Source: Methanothrix harundinacea
GTDB taxonomy: Archaea; Halobacteriota; Methanosarcinia; Methanotrichales; Methanotrichaceae
Reading direction: 5' to 3'
DNA length: 63,672 nt
Assembly: GCA_001509375.1 (NCBI GenBank)
Contig: LGFT01000002.1
Span: 1-63,672 of the forward strand
Of this stretch, positions 23,656-29,452 are shown in pieces (position 1 is the first letter of the stretch; each line of letters begins with the position of its first letter). The notes below the pieces were generated by a model. It saw only the letters and a list, made by a program, of their open reading frames with translations, made no database searches and was not told the DNA's origin. A program made the position numbers and the translations under genes.

Positions 23656-25035
23656 ATGAAAAATATGCGGATACCGTCTGAAATCTTCGACTTCTTCGGG
23701 GTCGAAGAGGGTCAGACGCTTCTCGTAAAGGGGATGCCGGGCACCGGAAAGACGACCCTGGCTCTGGAGATTATGAACTCCGTCTGCAATAAGATGAACG
23801 GGATGTACATCTCCACCCGGGTAAACCCCCTTCGAGTCTACGGCATGTTCCCTTGGATCGACGAGATTATCCCATCCAATAACGTAGTAAACGCCACCCA
23901 AAAGATGCTCCTTGAAAGCCTAAAGAACGTATGCCAGGAGGGCTCCGGCTACGAGGTGGTCCTCGATTTCTTCAAGACATTTTTGGACCAGGCCGAGGAC
24001 ATGGACGACCCCATGATCGTCATCGACAGCTGGGACGCCGTCATAAACTACACAGCCCACCTCCTCGGAGACGCTCAGCACAGTCTAGAGCAGAACATAT
24101 GCGAGTTCGCCCGGGACATGGGAATTCACATGATCTTCGTGAGCGAGTCGGCGGATTTGATGCCCCTCGACTACATCGTCGACGGCGTTGCGACCCTGAG
24201 GAACGTCAGGATTACATCCTCCATATCCAGCGAAAGCCGTCCTGAAGGGATGACGACGAGGTATGCACGAGAGATCGAGCTGGACAAATTGAGGGGGGTG
24301 GAGATCAAACAGAAGGTGTACACCTGTACCCTTTATGGCGGAAGGTTCTGTTACTTCGAGCCTGCGTTCGGATATGTCAGCCCTCAGATACGGATCTTGA
24401 GCGATGGGGACAGGATAGCCGACCCATGCGACGACCGCATCTCCACAGGGATAAGCGACTTCGACAAGATCACTGGTGGCCTGGGTCTTGGTTCTTGCAA
24501 CGTCCTAGAAATCGATCACGGCGTCGGAAAGAGGTACTACCAGGTGCTGACGGCTCTCGCCTCAAACTCCGTCAAGAACGGAAAAGCGGTCCACATAGTT
24601 CCGAGCATCGGCTATCAGATCACTCCCCGAGATGTCTTTGTCCCCTCCAACGTGATGGTGCTGGAGCCGGGAGGCGATCGTGACCAGTGGTACGAGACTC
24701 TCTTCAAGCACTGGGACACCCTGAGAGAGAGGACGGGCCGGCCGATCCTCAACATTCTGGGCCTCGACTCGATGGAGTTCGCCTTCGGCTACGAGAGGAT
24801 GCTGAACGCCACCAGCCGCATGTTTCAAAAGTGGAAGGAGACCAGTGACGTCAACGTGGTGGTGGTGAAGTCGGGCCAGAAGAGCATAAGAATGACATCC
24901 CACATAGCTGACACCTACTTCGTCATCAAGGAGCTGAACGGGGGTCTCTGCACCTACGGCCTGATCCCCCGGACCGAGCCCCACTATATGGTCTGGGACA
25001 AGAGTAACAACATCAGGCTGATACCCATCGTTTGA
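23656..25035 (+). CDS. KaiC/GvpD-like RecA-fold ATPase
   Basis: The 459-residue protein has two RecA-like halves. The first is intact, with Walker A GMPGTGKT at 26-33 and a Walker B strand MIVIDSWDAV near 120. The second starts at about residue 262 (ISTGISDFDKITGGLGLGSC) but its P-loop is degenerate (DHGVGKRY). The layout resembles the regulator GvpD and KaiC-family signalling ATPases. There is no gas-vesicle gene here. A TATA box (TTAAATAT, 23614-23621) gives a leader of roughly 13 nt. It probably works in signalling together with the upstream winged-helix protein. Confidence 0.8.
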   Translation: MKNMRIPSEIFDFFGVEEGQTLLVKGMPGTGKTTLALEIMNSVCNKMNGMYISTRVNPLRVYGMFPWIDEIIPSNNVVNATQKMLLESLKNVCQEGSGYEVVLDFFKTFLDQAEDMDDPMIVIDSWDAVINYTAHLLGDAQHSLEQNICEFARDMGIHMIFVSESADLMPLDYIVDGVATLRNVRITSSISSESRPEGMTTRYAREIELDKLRGVEIKQKVYTCTLYGGRFCYFEPAFGYVSPQIRILSDGDRIADPCDDRISTGISDFDKITGGLGLGSCNVLEIDHGVGKRYYQVLTALASNSVKNGKAVHIVPSIGYQITPRDVFVPSNVMVLEPGGDRDQWYETLFKHWDTLRERTGRPILNILGLDSMEFAFGYERMLNATSRMFQKWKETSDVNVVVVKSGQKSIRMTSHIADTYFVIKELNGGLCTYGLIPRTEPHYMVWDKSNNIRLIPIV

Positions 25036-25083: not shown

Positions 25084-25470
25084 TTACACCCAGTGGTCGC
25101 CCTCAGCCCCGATCTCCTTCTTCCAGATGGGGGCTCGTCTCTTAATCTCGTCGATGACGTATTCGCACCCCAGAAAGGCCGCTCGCCGGTGGGCCGCTGT
25201 GCAGACTATCAGGACGATCTCTTCCCCCACCGAGAGTGTTCCTATCCTGTGGATCATGTCAACGGACAACAGGTCGAACTTCTCCATCGCTTCCTTCTGG
25301 ATTGTCTTCAGCTCCTCCCTCGCCACCTCACAGTAGGCCTCCACCTCCATCCCCGAAATCCCATCGTCTCTGACGGTGCCCAGGAAGGATACAACGGCCC
25401 CCGCATCGGGCCGCTTCGCCCCCGCCAAAATCTCTTCGATTGCGATTCTCTCCTCGGTGATCTCGATCAA
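25084..25470 (-). CDS. moaE: Molybdopterin synthase catalytic subunit MoaE
   Basis: MoaE transfers sulfur from the MoaD thiocarboxylate to precursor Z to make molybdopterin, needed for the Mo/W formylmethanofuran dehydrogenase. The 128 residues show GAVVSFLGTVRD, EAYCEVAREEL, HRIGTLSVGEEIVLIV, AHRRAAFLGCEYVIDEIKRRAPIWKKE with the active-site Lys and Arg residues. I start it at TTG (25470), 7 nt after GGAGG and 16 nt after the MoaD stop; the longer open frame upstream runs into moaD. It is the last gene of the eight-gene operon that starts with ycaO. Confidence 0.93.
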   Translation of the reverse strand: MIEITEERIAIEEILAGAKRPDAGAVVSFLGTVRDDGISGMEVEAYCEVAREELKTIQKEAMEKFDLLSVDMIHRIGTLSVGEEIVLIVCTAAHRRAAFLGCEYVIDEIKRRAPIWKKEIGAEGDHWV

Positions 25471-25486
25471 GCCAAGGCCTCCGTTT

Positions 25487-25765
25487 TCATCCGCCGGAGA
25501 AGGGCGGGAGCAATGCCACCTCGTCCCCCTCCTCAAGAGCCGTCATCGAGAGATCAAGATGATCGATTCCCTTTCGGTTCCTGAGGATCGTCACACCATC
25601 GCCGACGGCCCCGTCAGAGCGGAATAGATCGCCTTCAAGCTCTGGATGAGAGAGAGAGATAGCTTTCAATAGGTCGCAGAGGGTGGAACCCTCTTCAAGC
25701 TCGACGCGATTCTTCTCGCCTGCGATCTCCCTGAACTTTGCAAAGGCCCTCACGAACACCCTCAT
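25487..25765 (-). CDS. moaD: MoaD/ThiS-family sulfur carrier protein (1)
   Basis: This 92-residue ubiquitin-fold protein ends in the required Gly-Gly (PPFSGG), the site of adenylation and thiocarboxylation. The N-terminal strand MRVFVRAFAKFREIAG and the EEGDEVALLPP segment are typical of MoaD. It lies directly upstream of moaE, so it is the likely molybdopterin synthase small subunit. A second carrier is encoded in the same operon at 27353. The single E1 in the operon could charge both. Confidence 0.92.
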   Translation of the reverse strand: MRVFVRAFAKFREIAGEKNRVELEEGSTLCDLLKAISLSHPELEGDLFRSDGAVGDGVTILRNRKGIDHLDLSMTALEEGDEVALLPPFSGG

Positions 25766-25775
25766 CTATTAAGCC

Positions 25776-26048
25776 TCATCTCTTCGCCCTCAACCTCTCA
25801 ATTTCCTCTTTCCCCTCGATCCTCATGACGAAGGTCCCATAGCAGGGCTTGGTGTAAGGGAAGATCACCTTCTCTTCCTCGATGCCGACGAGGAGCGGCG
25901 GAACTCCTATAAGGTGGACGTTGAAGATCCTGTAGCCTGGCGGGACCTCGACGGTATACTTGAAGTTCTTTTTTATGTACTCTCGCGCCTCTTTGAAGGA
26001 GCACTGGGACAGGAGTACCTCGTACTTCAACTCCTCGATACAGCTCAA
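25776..26048 (-). CDS. DUF1894 family protein (methanogen-specific)
   Basis: The 90-residue protein matches what I recall of DUF1894, a methanogen family of unknown function. It has MSCIEELKYEVLLSQCSF at the N terminus, PPGYRIFNVHLIGVPPLLVGI in the middle and FPYTKPCYGTFVMRIEG near the end. Cysteines at residues 3, 16 and in KPCYG are candidates for a metal or sulfur site. Its start overlaps the DUF1890 stop by 4 nt and its end lies 10 nt before moaD. The context points to sulfur transfer or cofactor work; the function is unknown. Confidence 0.8.
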   Translation of the reverse strand: MSCIEELKYEVLLSQCSFKEAREYIKKNFKYTVEVPPGYRIFNVHLIGVPPLLVGIEEEKVIFPYTKPCYGTFVMRIEGKEEIERLRAKR

Positions 26049-26536
26049 TCAATCACCTCGTCTATAAGCCTCTTCAGGGGAACCGGGTCGTGGACCGCCT
26101 TGGCCACCAGCTTTCTGCAGTCGAAATCGACGGTCTTTTCCAGCTCTTCGGCCCCTCTTCCGAAGATCAAAAGGAATAGTTCGGCCCCGGAGATGTAGCT
26201 CATCGTCCCGGCGTAGGAGATTCCTGCGTCGCTGTGCGCGAAGGCGAAACAGAGTTCGAAGTCCATCTTTCCCTCCGAGATAGAGGCGATGCAACGGTCG
26301 ATGTTCATCGTCTCGCCGATGTAGTGGCCCATGGGGTCTGCGAGCTTCATCAGCTTTAGGGCCGCTCCTGTTCCAGCCACCACCACCTCGTCTCCCCTTC
26401 TCCTAAGATTGTGAGCCAGGTAGAGAGCGATGCTGGTCTGGACTGGGACCTCGGGACAGCCCAGAAGAAGAAGAACCCTTCTCTTCCCGGAATTAATTAA
26501 AGCCGCCGCATCCCCAGAACTCTCAGAACCTTCCAT
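26045..26536 (-). CDS. DUF1890 family protein (methanogen-specific)
   Basis: The 163-residue protein has a flavodoxin/Rossmann-like pattern: VLLLLGCPEVPVQTSIALYL near residue 20-40, EVVVAGTGAALKLMKLADP, then a conserved centre (FAFAHSDAGISYAGTMSYI) and a C-terminal LIFGRGAEELEKTVDF. This matches the methanogen family DUF1890, often found with DUF1894. The first about 17 residues look non-conserved, so the true start could be slightly later. It sits 25 nt after the E1 gene and overlaps DUF1894. No activity is known. A role next to the E1 and carrier proteins is inferred. Confidence 0.8.
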   Translation of the reverse strand: MEGSESSGDAAALINSGKRRVLLLLGCPEVPVQTSIALYLAHNLRRRGDEVVVAGTGAALKLMKLADPMGHYIGETMNIDRCIASISEGKMDFELCFAFAHSDAGISYAGTMSYISGAELFLLIFGRGAEELEKTVDFDCRKLVAKAVHDPVPLKRLIDEVID

Positions 26537-26561
26537 GTGATATCATCAGCCTCAGGCCTAC

Positions 26562-27293
26562 TTAAAACTCTTCCACGCCACAGTCGCCGCATCGAGGGTT
26601 TCTCTCGATGGGTATCTCGTCGCATTCCGCCCTTAGGCCGTCCCAGATGAGGAGCCTCCCCCCGAGAAGCTCACCTTTCCCGGCCAGGTACTTTATCGCC
26701 TCGGATGCCTGGATCGAGCCGATGACGCCGCAGGTGGCTCCCAGAGCGGGGCTCGTCTCCTTGGGGGGCGAGCGAGGAAAGATGCATCTGAGGCACGGAG
26801 TCTTTTCTGGGATGACGGTGGTGGCCTGGCCGTTGAAGCCGGATATCGCCCCATGAAAGAGGGGAACCCCAATCTCGATGGCTGCCCTATTGAGGAGGTA
26901 CCTTGCGGGGAAGTTGTCCAGGGCGTCGATGACCAGATCGGCTTCGCTCACCAGGTCCGCCAGGTTATCCTCGTCGGCGAAGAGGGCAACCGCCTCTACA
27001 TCGACCTCAGGGTTGAGACCCAGAACAGTCTCAGCCGCTGAGACAGCTTTGGAACGCCCAACATCTCTCGCCCCGTGGAGAATCTGGCGGTTTAGGTTGC
27101 TAATTTCTACGACGTCGCCGTCGACGACGATGATCCTCCCCATCCCGGCGACGGCGAGATAGGCGGTGACTGAGGACCCCAGGCCCCCTGCCCCGACGAC
27201 GAGAGCGGTCGCCTTCTTTAAGCTCTTTTGGCCCTCGACCCCGAAGAGCCTGATCTGCCGCTCGTACCTTCCAGATTCCTCCAAACTGTCCAT
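26562..27293 (-). CDS. moeB: E1-like adenylyltransferase (MoeB/ThiF/UbaA family)
   Basis: The enzyme adenylates the C-terminal glycine of ubiquitin-like sulfur carriers. The 243 residues show the ATP motif GAGGLGSSVTAYLA, DVVEISNLNRQI, the DALDNFPARYLLN segment, the zinc cysteines CLRC and CGDC, and the catalytic Cys region GATCGVIG. I start at the ATG at 27293, 6 nt after GAGG; the alternative TTG at 27305 overlaps that site. It has no rhodanese domain. It is the only E1 seen here and probably serves both carriers of the operon. Confidence 0.93.
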   Translation of the reverse strand: MDSLEESGRYERQIRLFGVEGQKSLKKATALVVGAGGLGSSVTAYLAVAGMGRIIVVDGDVVEISNLNRQILHGARDVGRSKAVSAAETVLGLNPEVDVEAVALFADEDNLADLVSEADLVIDALDNFPARYLLNRAAIEIGVPLFHGAISGFNGQATTVIPEKTPCLRCIFPRSPPKETSPALGATCGVIGSIQASEAIKYLAGKGELLGGRLLIWDGLRAECDEIPIERNPRCGDCGVEEF

Positions 27294-27352
27294 TTCAAGC
27301 CTCAAAATGTAGTATAATATGGCTAATATATCAATCGATCAGAGGGCCAGCC

Positions 27353-27631
27353 TCAGCCGCCCACCACCGCCGAGAAGAGCGCCACCTCATCACCCGCCGC
27401 CAAGGCCGTATCTGGGCCGTTCAGCGACTCGGAGTGTCTCCCGTTGACCATGATGTTCACGTCTTCTCGGACCCTGCCGGAGGAGTCGAAGATCTGATTA
27501 TCAAGGTCGACGGACCTCGAAGCCAGCTTTTTCATAAGGTCGAATACTGTGGAGCCTTCGGGAAGGTCGACCTCCATCTCCCTGTCCAGGAGGTCTCTGA
27601 ACCGTGCGTAGGCCTTCAGTCTGATTATCAT
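27353..27631 (-). CDS. MoaD/ThiS-family sulfur carrier protein (2)
   Basis: This second ubiquitin-fold carrier has 92 residues and ends in VVGG. It differs from the MoaD at 25487 through most of its length (MIIRLKAYARFRDLL, NIMVNGRHSESLNG, AAGDEVALFSAVVGG). Its start overlaps the TfuA stop in ATGA, so it is translationally coupled to the YcaO-TfuA pair rather than to MoaE. That placement makes it a plausible sulfur donor carrier for McrA thioamidation or tRNA thiolation. Confidence 0.9.
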   Translation of the reverse strand: MIIRLKAYARFRDLLDREMEVDLPEGSTVFDLMKKLASRSVDLDNQIFDSSGRVREDVNIMVNGRHSESLNGPDTALAAGDEVALFSAVVGG

Positions 27632-28278
27632 GGTTGTCCTGCGATCTCCTTTATCCGCTTTAGGGCTTGTATGGCGTCGTCCCTCTTCAGGTCTCTCTTC
27701 TCTTGAAGGAATCTCCTAAAAGCCTCTCGCTGTGGCTCATCGATCCCCTCTGCCATCTCCAGGATCTGTTCATAGGTTCTTTTCGGGAAGTAGAGGGACG
27801 ATGCGCAAGCAATGAGCTTCTCGCCCGCCTCCGGCTCGATATATCCCAACTCCACAGCGGCCCTGACGTTGTCCCTGATGTTCACCAGAGGCTCGGATAG
27901 GGGCTCGAATTTGATGGGATCAAATATGAGGGCCACCTCGTCGTCGGAGATGAGGACGTCCTCCTGGTAGAGCCGGAAGATCTCGCCCACCCCCTCCATC
28001 CCGAAGGGATGAAGCTCTGCGGCCCTAAGGGCCCCCATGCTGGAGGCGCCGACGACGGCTACCCCTCTCTCCAGGACGGCGAGAATCTCCTTGTGAGCTA
28101 CGGCGCTGTCCTGGAAGAAGACGCCGTCGATGAGCCCTACGATTTTGGCGCCCTCCTTCGCGGCCCTGAAGACGTCGCCTCTCTTGGCGGGGGGGCGATA
28201 TTCGGCCTCCAGGATCTCTTCGGCCCTCGCCCTATCTAGGCTTGGCCCGAGAAAGACGACGATTTCTCTTGATCTCAT
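27628..28278 (-). CDS. tfuA: TfuA-like protein, partner of YcaO
   Basis: TfuA proteins work with YcaO in thioamide formation; in methanogens the pair installs the thioglycine of methyl-coenzyme M reductase. The 216 residues contain the TfuA core: IVVFLGPSLDRARAEEIL, IVGLIDGVFFQDSAVAHKEIL and the GVAVVGASSMGALRAAEL segment. Its start overlaps the end of ycaO by 47 nt. TfuA is thought to help deliver or activate the sulfur source, and the next gene encodes a sulfur carrier. Confidence 0.93.
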   Translation of the reverse strand: MRSREIVVFLGPSLDRARAEEILEAEYRPPAKRGDVFRAAKEGAKIVGLIDGVFFQDSAVAHKEILAVLERGVAVVGASSMGALRAAELHPFGMEGVGEIFRLYQEDVLISDDEVALIFDPIKFEPLSEPLVNIRDNVRAAVELGYIEPEAGEKLIACASSLYFPKRTYEQILEMAEGIDEPQREAFRRFLQEKRDLKRDDAIQALKRIKEIAGQP

Positions 28279-29452
28279 CTCTGCACCGCTTGCCCCGCCG
28301 ATCCTGGTCCATGGCGCTCTGCTCCAGGCCCGGAACCATCACCCTCACCACAGGGACCCCGATCTCCTCTCGGGTGAGGTCGACGACTATGGCTCTGTCC
28401 ATCCCAGCCTCTTCGAGCCGTTTCAGCATCAGGTTGATGTCGTCGAGGAAGTCCTCGCTATCCTGGGACTTGATCTCGGAGAAGGGCCTCGTCTCCGAGT
28501 CGCCAAACCAGTGTCTGTTCAGCCTCTTGGTCCTATCGTAACCGATCTGTCTCCTGAAATCCGCCGTCGTCGTGTCCTCTCTAGCTCCGTGGATCTGGGT
28601 CAGCCTCGACTGGGCGACCTCCGTCAGGGCCCGGAGGACAGCCACCTGGGCGCTGGTGTGGGTTCCCATCCCGATGGTGAGAAGGGCGGGGTCCTTCAGC
28701 CTTAGGTCGTCAGAGGCCGCGGCGATGGTGGGGACTCCGACGTCGCTTGTGATATCTTTTATCAGGACGTTCACCTCGGCGGCGGCGAACTTCTCTATGA
28801 GCCCCGCCGCGAGGCCGTCCTCCACCTCCGTGACTCGTGGCCCAGTCCTCTTTGCCGCCTCAACGAGGGACCAGGCGTCCCTCTCAATCACCTCGGAGAG
28901 GCCGTGGAAGACCGCCTCCTCCAGGACGTTTCCAGAGGCGAGGCCGTTGGTGTTCGTCCGAAATAGCTGCGGATAGTTGGGAGGCATGGGGTGGAAGACC
29001 CCGCTCGCAGGGACCATCACCTCCTCTCTTCTGATCAGGTCGTAGCCCTCGACCCAGGGGATGGCCATATCGGGGTTCGCGTCCTGAGGGAGGATCAGGT
29101 CCCTCGGGTCGACTGCGTTCGTCTCGGACGCAAGCTTTGAGCAGGTCTCGACCAAAAGTACCCTCTCGTGGACCTCGGCAGAGTACCGCTCGATCCCCTC
29201 CATCATAGCCGAGACCCTCGCCTCAGCAGGGGTGGCGCCCTTGCCGTTGTAGACGGAGATCGCCCCCTTATCAGCGGCGGGCCTGATGCTGGAGAAGACG
29301 GGGATCCCGATCCGGTCCAGGTTGGTGATGTCGGCCACCCTGGTTATCCCCGCTAGCTCCATCTTGGGCGCTATCCGGTCGAGTGTCTCCTCGGGGGAGA
29401 AGGCTCGGTGTGTATCGGTCTTGTACCTTTTTATGCAGGATCTGAGCAACAT
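28232..29452 (-). CDS. ycaO: YcaO-domain protein for McrA glycine thioamidation
   Basis: YcaO enzymes phosphorylate backbone amides with ATP. The methanogen member converts a glycine of McrA to thioglycine. The 406 residues show ATPAEARVSAMMEGIERYSAE, the NTNGLASGNVLEEAVFHGLSEVIERDAWSL region that forms the ATP site, and a C-terminal VPVVRVMVPGLE. It is the first gene of the eight-gene minus-strand operon. Downstream partners are TfuA, a ThiS-like carrier and an E1. The extreme C terminus is Arg/Lys-rich and lies within the tfuA overlap. Confidence 0.95.
   Translation of the reverse strand: MLLRSCIKRYKTDTHRAFSPEETLDRIAPKMELAGITRVADITNLDRIGIPVFSSIRPAADKGAISVYNGKGATPAEARVSAMMEGIERYSAEVHERVLLVETCSKLASETNAVDPRDLILPQDANPDMAIPWVEGYDLIRREEVMVPASGVFHPMPPNYPQLFRTNTNGLASGNVLEEAVFHGLSEVIERDAWSLVEAAKRTGPRVTEVEDGLAAGLIEKFAAAEVNVLIKDITSDVGVPTIAAASDDLRLKDPALLTIGMGTHTSAQVAVLRALTEVAQSRLTQIHGAREDTTTADFRRQIGYDRTKRLNRHWFGDSETRPFSEIKSQDSEDFLDDINLMLKRLEEAGMDRAIVVDLTREEIGVPVVRVMVPGLEQSAMDQDRRGKRCRDEIKRNRRLSRAKPR

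Follow-up and report, generated by a model that had tools for sequence, protein, structure and literature searches.

The enzyme responsible for biological methane formation carries a conserved thioglycine in McrA. Formation of this residue requires ycaO together with tfuA, and thiF, sufS, moaD, moaE and moeB genes have been reported near this pair (Nayak 2017, PMC5589413). Archaeal TfuA hydrolyses thiocarboxylated ThiS and in this way supplies the sulfur for YcaO (Liu 2021, pmid 33707784), as related in passages of three papers that cite this work (PMC13063428, PMC8153245, PMC8939145). An initial annotation of the operon analysed here, which had described the path of the sulfur as not settled, is outdated in view of these reports. 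In the literature examined, the carrier and the E1 that act in vivo are not assigned outside the published example, and both are nominated by this operon, which lies in a window of 63,672 nucleotides (positions 1 to 63,672, the whole stretch that was analysed) on contig LGFT01000002.1 (G000:C45) of Methanothrix harundinacea. The assembly, G000, is 97.5% complete, and comparison with relatives identifies the host genome as Methanothrix, M. harundinacea-like. The sulfur mechanism itself is supported by our analysis and is not new; what the locus adds is a probable dedicated carrier and a single E1 common to thioamidation and molybdenum-cofactor synthesis.

We read the operon as a branched sulfur route, and give this reading as a whole a probability of about 0.7. 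A single E1 would adenylate the C-terminal glycine of two ThiS/MoaD-type carriers, A and B, and each adenylate would be converted to a thiocarboxylate, the sulfur probably coming from free sulfide or from the NifS/IscS-type cysteine desulfurase that the same genome encodes at C71. TfuA would then hydrolyse thiocarboxylated carrier A to release sulfide at YcaO, which would phosphorylate the glycine amide of McrA so that oxygen is swapped for sulfur, while thiocarboxylated carrier B would dock in MoaE for the synthesis of molybdopterin or tungstopterin. We infer both that carrier A rather than carrier B serves TfuA and that the E1 of the operon charges both. Read in this way, the tail sequence of the carriers offers a testable account of how a single E1 could supply sulfur to two pathways and keep them separate.

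Results

Eight genes on the minus strand run from 29452 to 25084 in the order ycaO, tfuA, carrier A, E1, DUF1890, DUF1894, carrier B and moaE, with curated models backing the identity of all eight (Table 1). Both this order and the short gaps and overlaps noted in the initial annotation agree with the coordinates: three junctions overlap, and the largest gap is about 60 bp. A convergent KaiC-like gene (23656-25035) forms the downstream boundary, and a same-strand CitMHS transporter gene ends 134 bp upstream of ycaO. The eight genes are best explained as a combined sulfur-transfer operon; the cluster is real and functionally coherent, and most of it is already explained.

The first two proteins fall in the McrA-specific clades of their families, YcaO scoring above the cut-off of the model named 'YcaO-related McrA-glycine thioamidation protein' (TIGR03266) and TfuA, whose gene overlaps ycaO, above that of the 'TfuA-related McrA-glycine thioamidation protein' (NF033432). 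From these matches, YcaO is predicted to be an ATP-dependent enzyme that activates the amide backbone, here as the McrA glycine thioamidase. TfuA has a solved relative (6xp8, E 3e-47) and keeps the residues that are invariant in 92 aligned archaeal sequences. The rest of what TfuA-dependent McrA thioamidation calls for is found in the same genome: an McrA with the modifiable glycine site MGFFGYDLQDQC (G000:C98), a ThiS-type carrier with a Gly-Gly tail, and an E1.

Carriers A and B are the two ThiS-family matches in G000 and the only detected ThiS-family proteins there with a Gly-Gly end; both lie above the cut-offs for the ThiS Pfam family, SAMP1 and moaD_arch. Carrier B sits beside the sole MoaE detected in G000 and has a tail of the PPxxGG type, as found for molybdopterin synthase. 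The tail and linkage of carrier A are not those of a MoaD, its tail type being found in none of 62 MoaE-linked carriers. We propose, from tails and neighbours, that carrier A may be the dedicated donor to TfuA and carrier B the MoaD for MoaE.

Between the two modules lies the gene for the E1, whose best solved relative is E. coli MoeB (1jw9, E 1e-45). Over 79 aligned E1 sequences, the nucleotide-binding glycines G38, G40 and G41 are invariant, and so are the adenylation residues R73, K86 and D130 and the zinc cysteines of the first CxxC pair (C171 and C174), with the second pair (C239/C242) present in at least 93%; these are the residues of a MoeB/ThiF E1. The protein has no rhodanese domain. 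Since it is the sole ThiF-family protein detected in G000, it is likely to charge both carriers, which supports the suggestion in the initial annotation that one E1 is common to both pathways. Elsewhere, a 97%-complete genome (G010) has TfuA, carrier A and MoaE, with no ThiF-family E1 detected.

Table 1. Genes of the operon in transcriptional order, with family matches and the spacing to the following gene.
Gene	Start	End	Strand	Product and matches	Junction with the next gene
ycaO	28232	29452	-	406 aa; PF02624 334 bits; TIGR03266 518 bits (cut-off 365)	47 bp overlap
tfuA	27628	28278	-	216 aa; PF07812 156 bits; NF033432 285 bits (cut-off 235)	4 bp overlap (carrier A start over tfuA stop)
carA (carrier A)	27353	27631	-	ThiS/MoaD-fold, 92 aa, tail FSAVVGG; PF02597 52.7 bits; SAMP1 68 bits; moaD_arch 55 bits	gap of about 47 bp; 59 bp if E1 begins at the inner ATG
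E1	26562	27305	-	MoeB/ThiF-type adenylyltransferase; PF00899 (ThiF) 250 bits; start TTG 27305 or ATG 27293	25 bp gap
DUF1890	26045	26536	-	MTH0777-like; PF09001 185 bits; 1kjn E 2e-26	4 bp overlap
DUF1894	25776	26048	-	MTH0776-like; PF08979 131 bits; 1z9v E 1e-16	10 bp gap
carrier B (moaD-like)	25487	25765	-	92 aa, tail LPPFSGG; PF02597 53.5 bits; moaD_arch 61 bits	16 bp gap with the MoaE TTG start
moaE	25084	25470	-	molybdopterin synthase large subunit; PF02391 114 bits; TTG start at 25470	

Conservation of the operon, named in the initial annotation as a check, was analysed in 72 archaeal TfuA loci from a genome collection, a locus counting as linked if it has a carrier, E1 or MoaE gene within 6 kb of tfuA, with kinship among loci left uncorrected. 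Linkage was found at 52 of the 72 against a chance expectation of about 1% per locus for a 2.4-Mb genome with two clusters of this kind, so the layout is not due to chance. Its form varies. The carrier comes directly after TfuA in Methanotrichaceae and ANME-2, an E1-carrier-MoaE block lies upstream of ycaO in Methanoculleus, the E1 directly follows TfuA in Methanocorpusculaceae and also at L076/L080, and L078 has a convergent version of the arrangement. On the YcaO tree (a quick tree with several open forks) this amounts to at least 11 changes of arrangement, and such repeated re-formation of the linkage in varied layouts speaks more strongly for a shared function than one inherited order would.

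As MoaE is present in most of these clusters, one might suppose that the cluster is primarily a molybdopterin or tungstopterin operon, in which YcaO-TfuA is carried alongside for co-regulation with methanogenesis and YcaO uses ambient sulfide. Methanogens without TfuA do still make thioglycine, and YcaO uses sulfide in vitro (PMC5589413, PMC7581889). We nevertheless consider this explanation unlikely, because the arrangements arose repeatedly and independently, because TfuA activity on thiocarboxylated ThiS has been published (as related in the citing passages mentioned above), and because several lineages have a carrier alone or an E1 alone beside TfuA without MoaE. A carrier is found beside TfuA, with the E1 and MoaE elsewhere, at L171/G010, L063/G018, L221/G031 and L230/G042, and the ANME-2c genome G044 is an independent case in which one carrier follows TfuA and a second accompanies MoaE; conversely, at five Methanocorpusculaceae loci (L093, L096, L098, L100 and L101) the E1 directly follows TfuA, and neither a carrier nor MoaE was detected next to it. 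The link of TfuA to this sulfur machinery is therefore not merely a link to molybdopterin genes.

The operon comes apart in Methanotrichaceae along a consistent line, with ycaO-tfuA-carrier A as one module and DUF1890-DUF1894-carrier B-moaE as the other. Carrier A follows TfuA in relatives even where the E1 and MoaE lie elsewhere, and in G007 and G008 the E1 and carrier B have been lost from the TfuA operon while carrier A is kept beside TfuA. The modules also differ in their carrier tails. A P/S-A-x-x-G-G tail is found in 16 of 18 distinct rows of carriers that neighbour TfuA and not MoaE and in 0 of 62 MoaE-linked rows (Fisher p 6e-15, the tree offering no more than one independent pair that is informative), a count that is a description and not an independent test because the tail change represents few events; the solved MoaD and SAMP1 tails are PPxxGG. 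A carrier tree built without the tail columns gives weak support (81/0) for joining the A-tail carriers of Methanotrichaceae to the ANME-2 carrier linked to TfuA, and the approximately unbiased (AU) test does not reject one origin for all members of the A-tail group (p 0.22).

The same data bear on whether the carriers might be interchangeable, such that the E1 charges, and TfuA and MoaE accept, either of them, carrier A being a recent duplicate without a private role and the operon a sulfur-carrier regulon. In three ANME-2a/b-type genomes (G032, G033 and G034) the one detected carrier stands between TfuA and MoaE and has the tail FPPVAGG; many TfuA-positive Methanomicrobiales likewise have a single detected carrier, and the ANME-2c carrier at L064 is linked to TfuA yet ends in PPVAGG. 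Against this stand the common A-tail of the TfuA-linked Methanotrichaceae carriers, absent from the MoaE-linked set, and the separation of the two kinds of carrier into different modules where the operon has come apart. We regard full interchangeability as possible, if somewhat doubtful. A reasonable reading of these sequences is that an ancestral carrier, which may have been common to TfuA and MoaE and would still be single in G032-G034, was later duplicated and specialised; the carriers of G044 represent a second, separate split.

Several observations weigh against a dedicated carrier A fed by this E1. Few evolutionary events account for the tail difference, and the carrier tree is poorly resolved. 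In G007 and G008 it is MoaE that stays in the TfuA operon beside carrier A, without carrier B, so that carrier A could still serve MoaE and its role need not be private. Six TfuA-positive members of the Methanotrichaceae (G011, G016, G017 and G035-G037) have no A-tail carrier, which means that the dedicated carrier is not universal and is either dispensable or replaced, and in G013, G040, G043 and G046 the carrier-A-type gene adjoins the E1 instead of TfuA. Finally, the E1 lacks the cysteine of MoeB C187 and ThiF C184, which participates in some sulfur transfers; the segment that would hold it is missing here and in the sampled relatives. As the E1 has neither this segment nor a rhodanese domain, sulfide or persulfide probably attacks the carrier adenylate directly. 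A second type of E1, present in some Methanosarcinaceae (L163), retains the transfer-cysteine loop. The proposal of the initial annotation, that a carrier thiocarboxylate charged by the E1 feeds TfuA-YcaO while the same E1 serves molybdopterin synthesis, is supported in part: it fits all of the data, and its core TfuA-ThiS step is published (in the passages cited above), while a dedicated carrier would hold for only some of the TfuA-positive genomes. Co-occurrence of the carrier with YcaO-TfuA in other methanogens, on which that annotation had staked the idea, is seen, with the six genomes just listed lacking the carrier A type.

Carrier A may have a replacement, since six of the seven Methanotrichaceae without it that were examined encode a short carrier of the SAMP2-like type, which in several of them lies immediately ahead of the E1. 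This complementarity (Fisher p 0.02, uncorrected for relatedness) is a lead, and the short carrier might substitute for carrier A. Short SAMP2/ThiS-like carriers with a V-V/I-H-G-G tail directly precede the E1 at L215, L218, L219 and L220, mostly in genomes without carrier A. A search of G000 for a short carrier with a Gly-Gly tail gave no match. The genome does encode a SAMP2-family protein of 73 aa (G000:C3:746-922; L267 704-922) that ends in Ser-Ala-Gly instead of Gly-Gly and, judged by this tail, may not function as a thiocarboxylate carrier in this form; 73-aa SAMP2-family matches occur across Methanotrichaceae, and the SAG tail is shared by at least one of them. In some Methanothrix genomes there is also a second carrier-MoaE-E1 cluster, which differs in sequence (L166, L174 and L177).

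Both carriers score above the SAMP1 cut-off, so one could ask whether they are SAMP1-type modifiers of protein lysines and not sulfur donors. The SAMP1 and MoaD models overlap, however, dual roles are known for such proteins in haloarchaea, and the carriers are linked directly to the thiocarboxylate users TfuA and MoaE, which leaves this explanation very improbable.

The remaining genes of the operon are DUF1890, DUF1894 and moaE, the last of which probably starts at TTG 25470 and not at the long open reading frame start, 25536. The position of DUF1890 and DUF1894 inside the operon, the invariant cysteines of DUF1894 (C3 and C69) and DUF1890 (C27), and a locus in which the pair directly follows TfuA (L263, in G067) would all suit a part for the two in thioamidation, for instance in providing the carriers with sulfur. 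We judge this to be quite improbable. No DUF1890 above the family cut-off was found in TfuA-positive Methanosarcinaceae genera (g13 to g17), so DUF1890 is not needed for thioamidation, and when YcaO-TfuA lies elsewhere the pair remains with carrier B-MoaE or beside FdhD, an FdhD family gene adjoining it in two Methanomicrobiales-type loci (L237 and L252). The two proteins are best seen as cofactor-maturation partners tied to the molybdopterin genes rather than to thioamidation. DUF1890 was also considered as a sulfur relay and rejected: the AlphaFold 2 (AF2) model (predicted local distance difference test score, pLDDT, 90) has 1kjn as its sole strong fold match and otherwise matches generic Rossmann folds, and the distribution of the family does not track TfuA.

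Two observations concern the distribution of YcaO and TfuA. Relatives of the archaeal-type proteins occur in Geminicoccaceae, Nannocystis, Polyangium and Paracoccus (L099, L103-L106, L108 and L109). One Methanotrichaceae genome has McrA and no detectable ycaO or tfuA (G012:C94; L179, 2721-3847), and its carA is truncated at the very point where the match with the sister locus L032 stops (95.7% DNA identity over 2379 bp), through either a deletion or insertion or an assembly join. We dropped this genome as a natural knockout, as one such event or an assembly join explains the states of ycaO, tfuA and carA together.

Discussion

Beyond the shared route, we tentatively advance a more specific claim, with a confidence just short of even: a carrier at first shared would have undergone duplication in Methanotrichaceae and, as a separate event, in ANME-2c, after which one copy would supply TfuA-YcaO alone and the other molybdopterin synthase alone; a single E1 that lacks the usual transfer cysteine would charge both, and the A-x-x-G-G tail would act as an address label that keeps the two flows of sulfur apart.

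The locus resembles the TfuA-YcaO/ThiS thioamidation system of Methanosarcina acetivorans in having the same two curated families, the same McrA site and the same kinds of neighbours, and differs from it in placing two carriers and one E1 in a single operon, with a TfuA-linked carrier that has its own tail and is separable in relatives. With the MoaD-MoaE-MoeB molybdopterin synthase system it shares the families and the order of carrier B, MoaE and the E1, whereas the E1 here is the only one detected, lies between two carriers and is without the MoeB C187 / ThiF C184 cysteine. The use of one E1 to charge several ubiquitin-like carriers for different acceptors is known from Haloferax UbaA with its SAMPs and from Urm1-Uba4. 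This operon would share with them the branching of carriers from one E1, the acceptors here being predicted to be TfuA-YcaO and MoaE.

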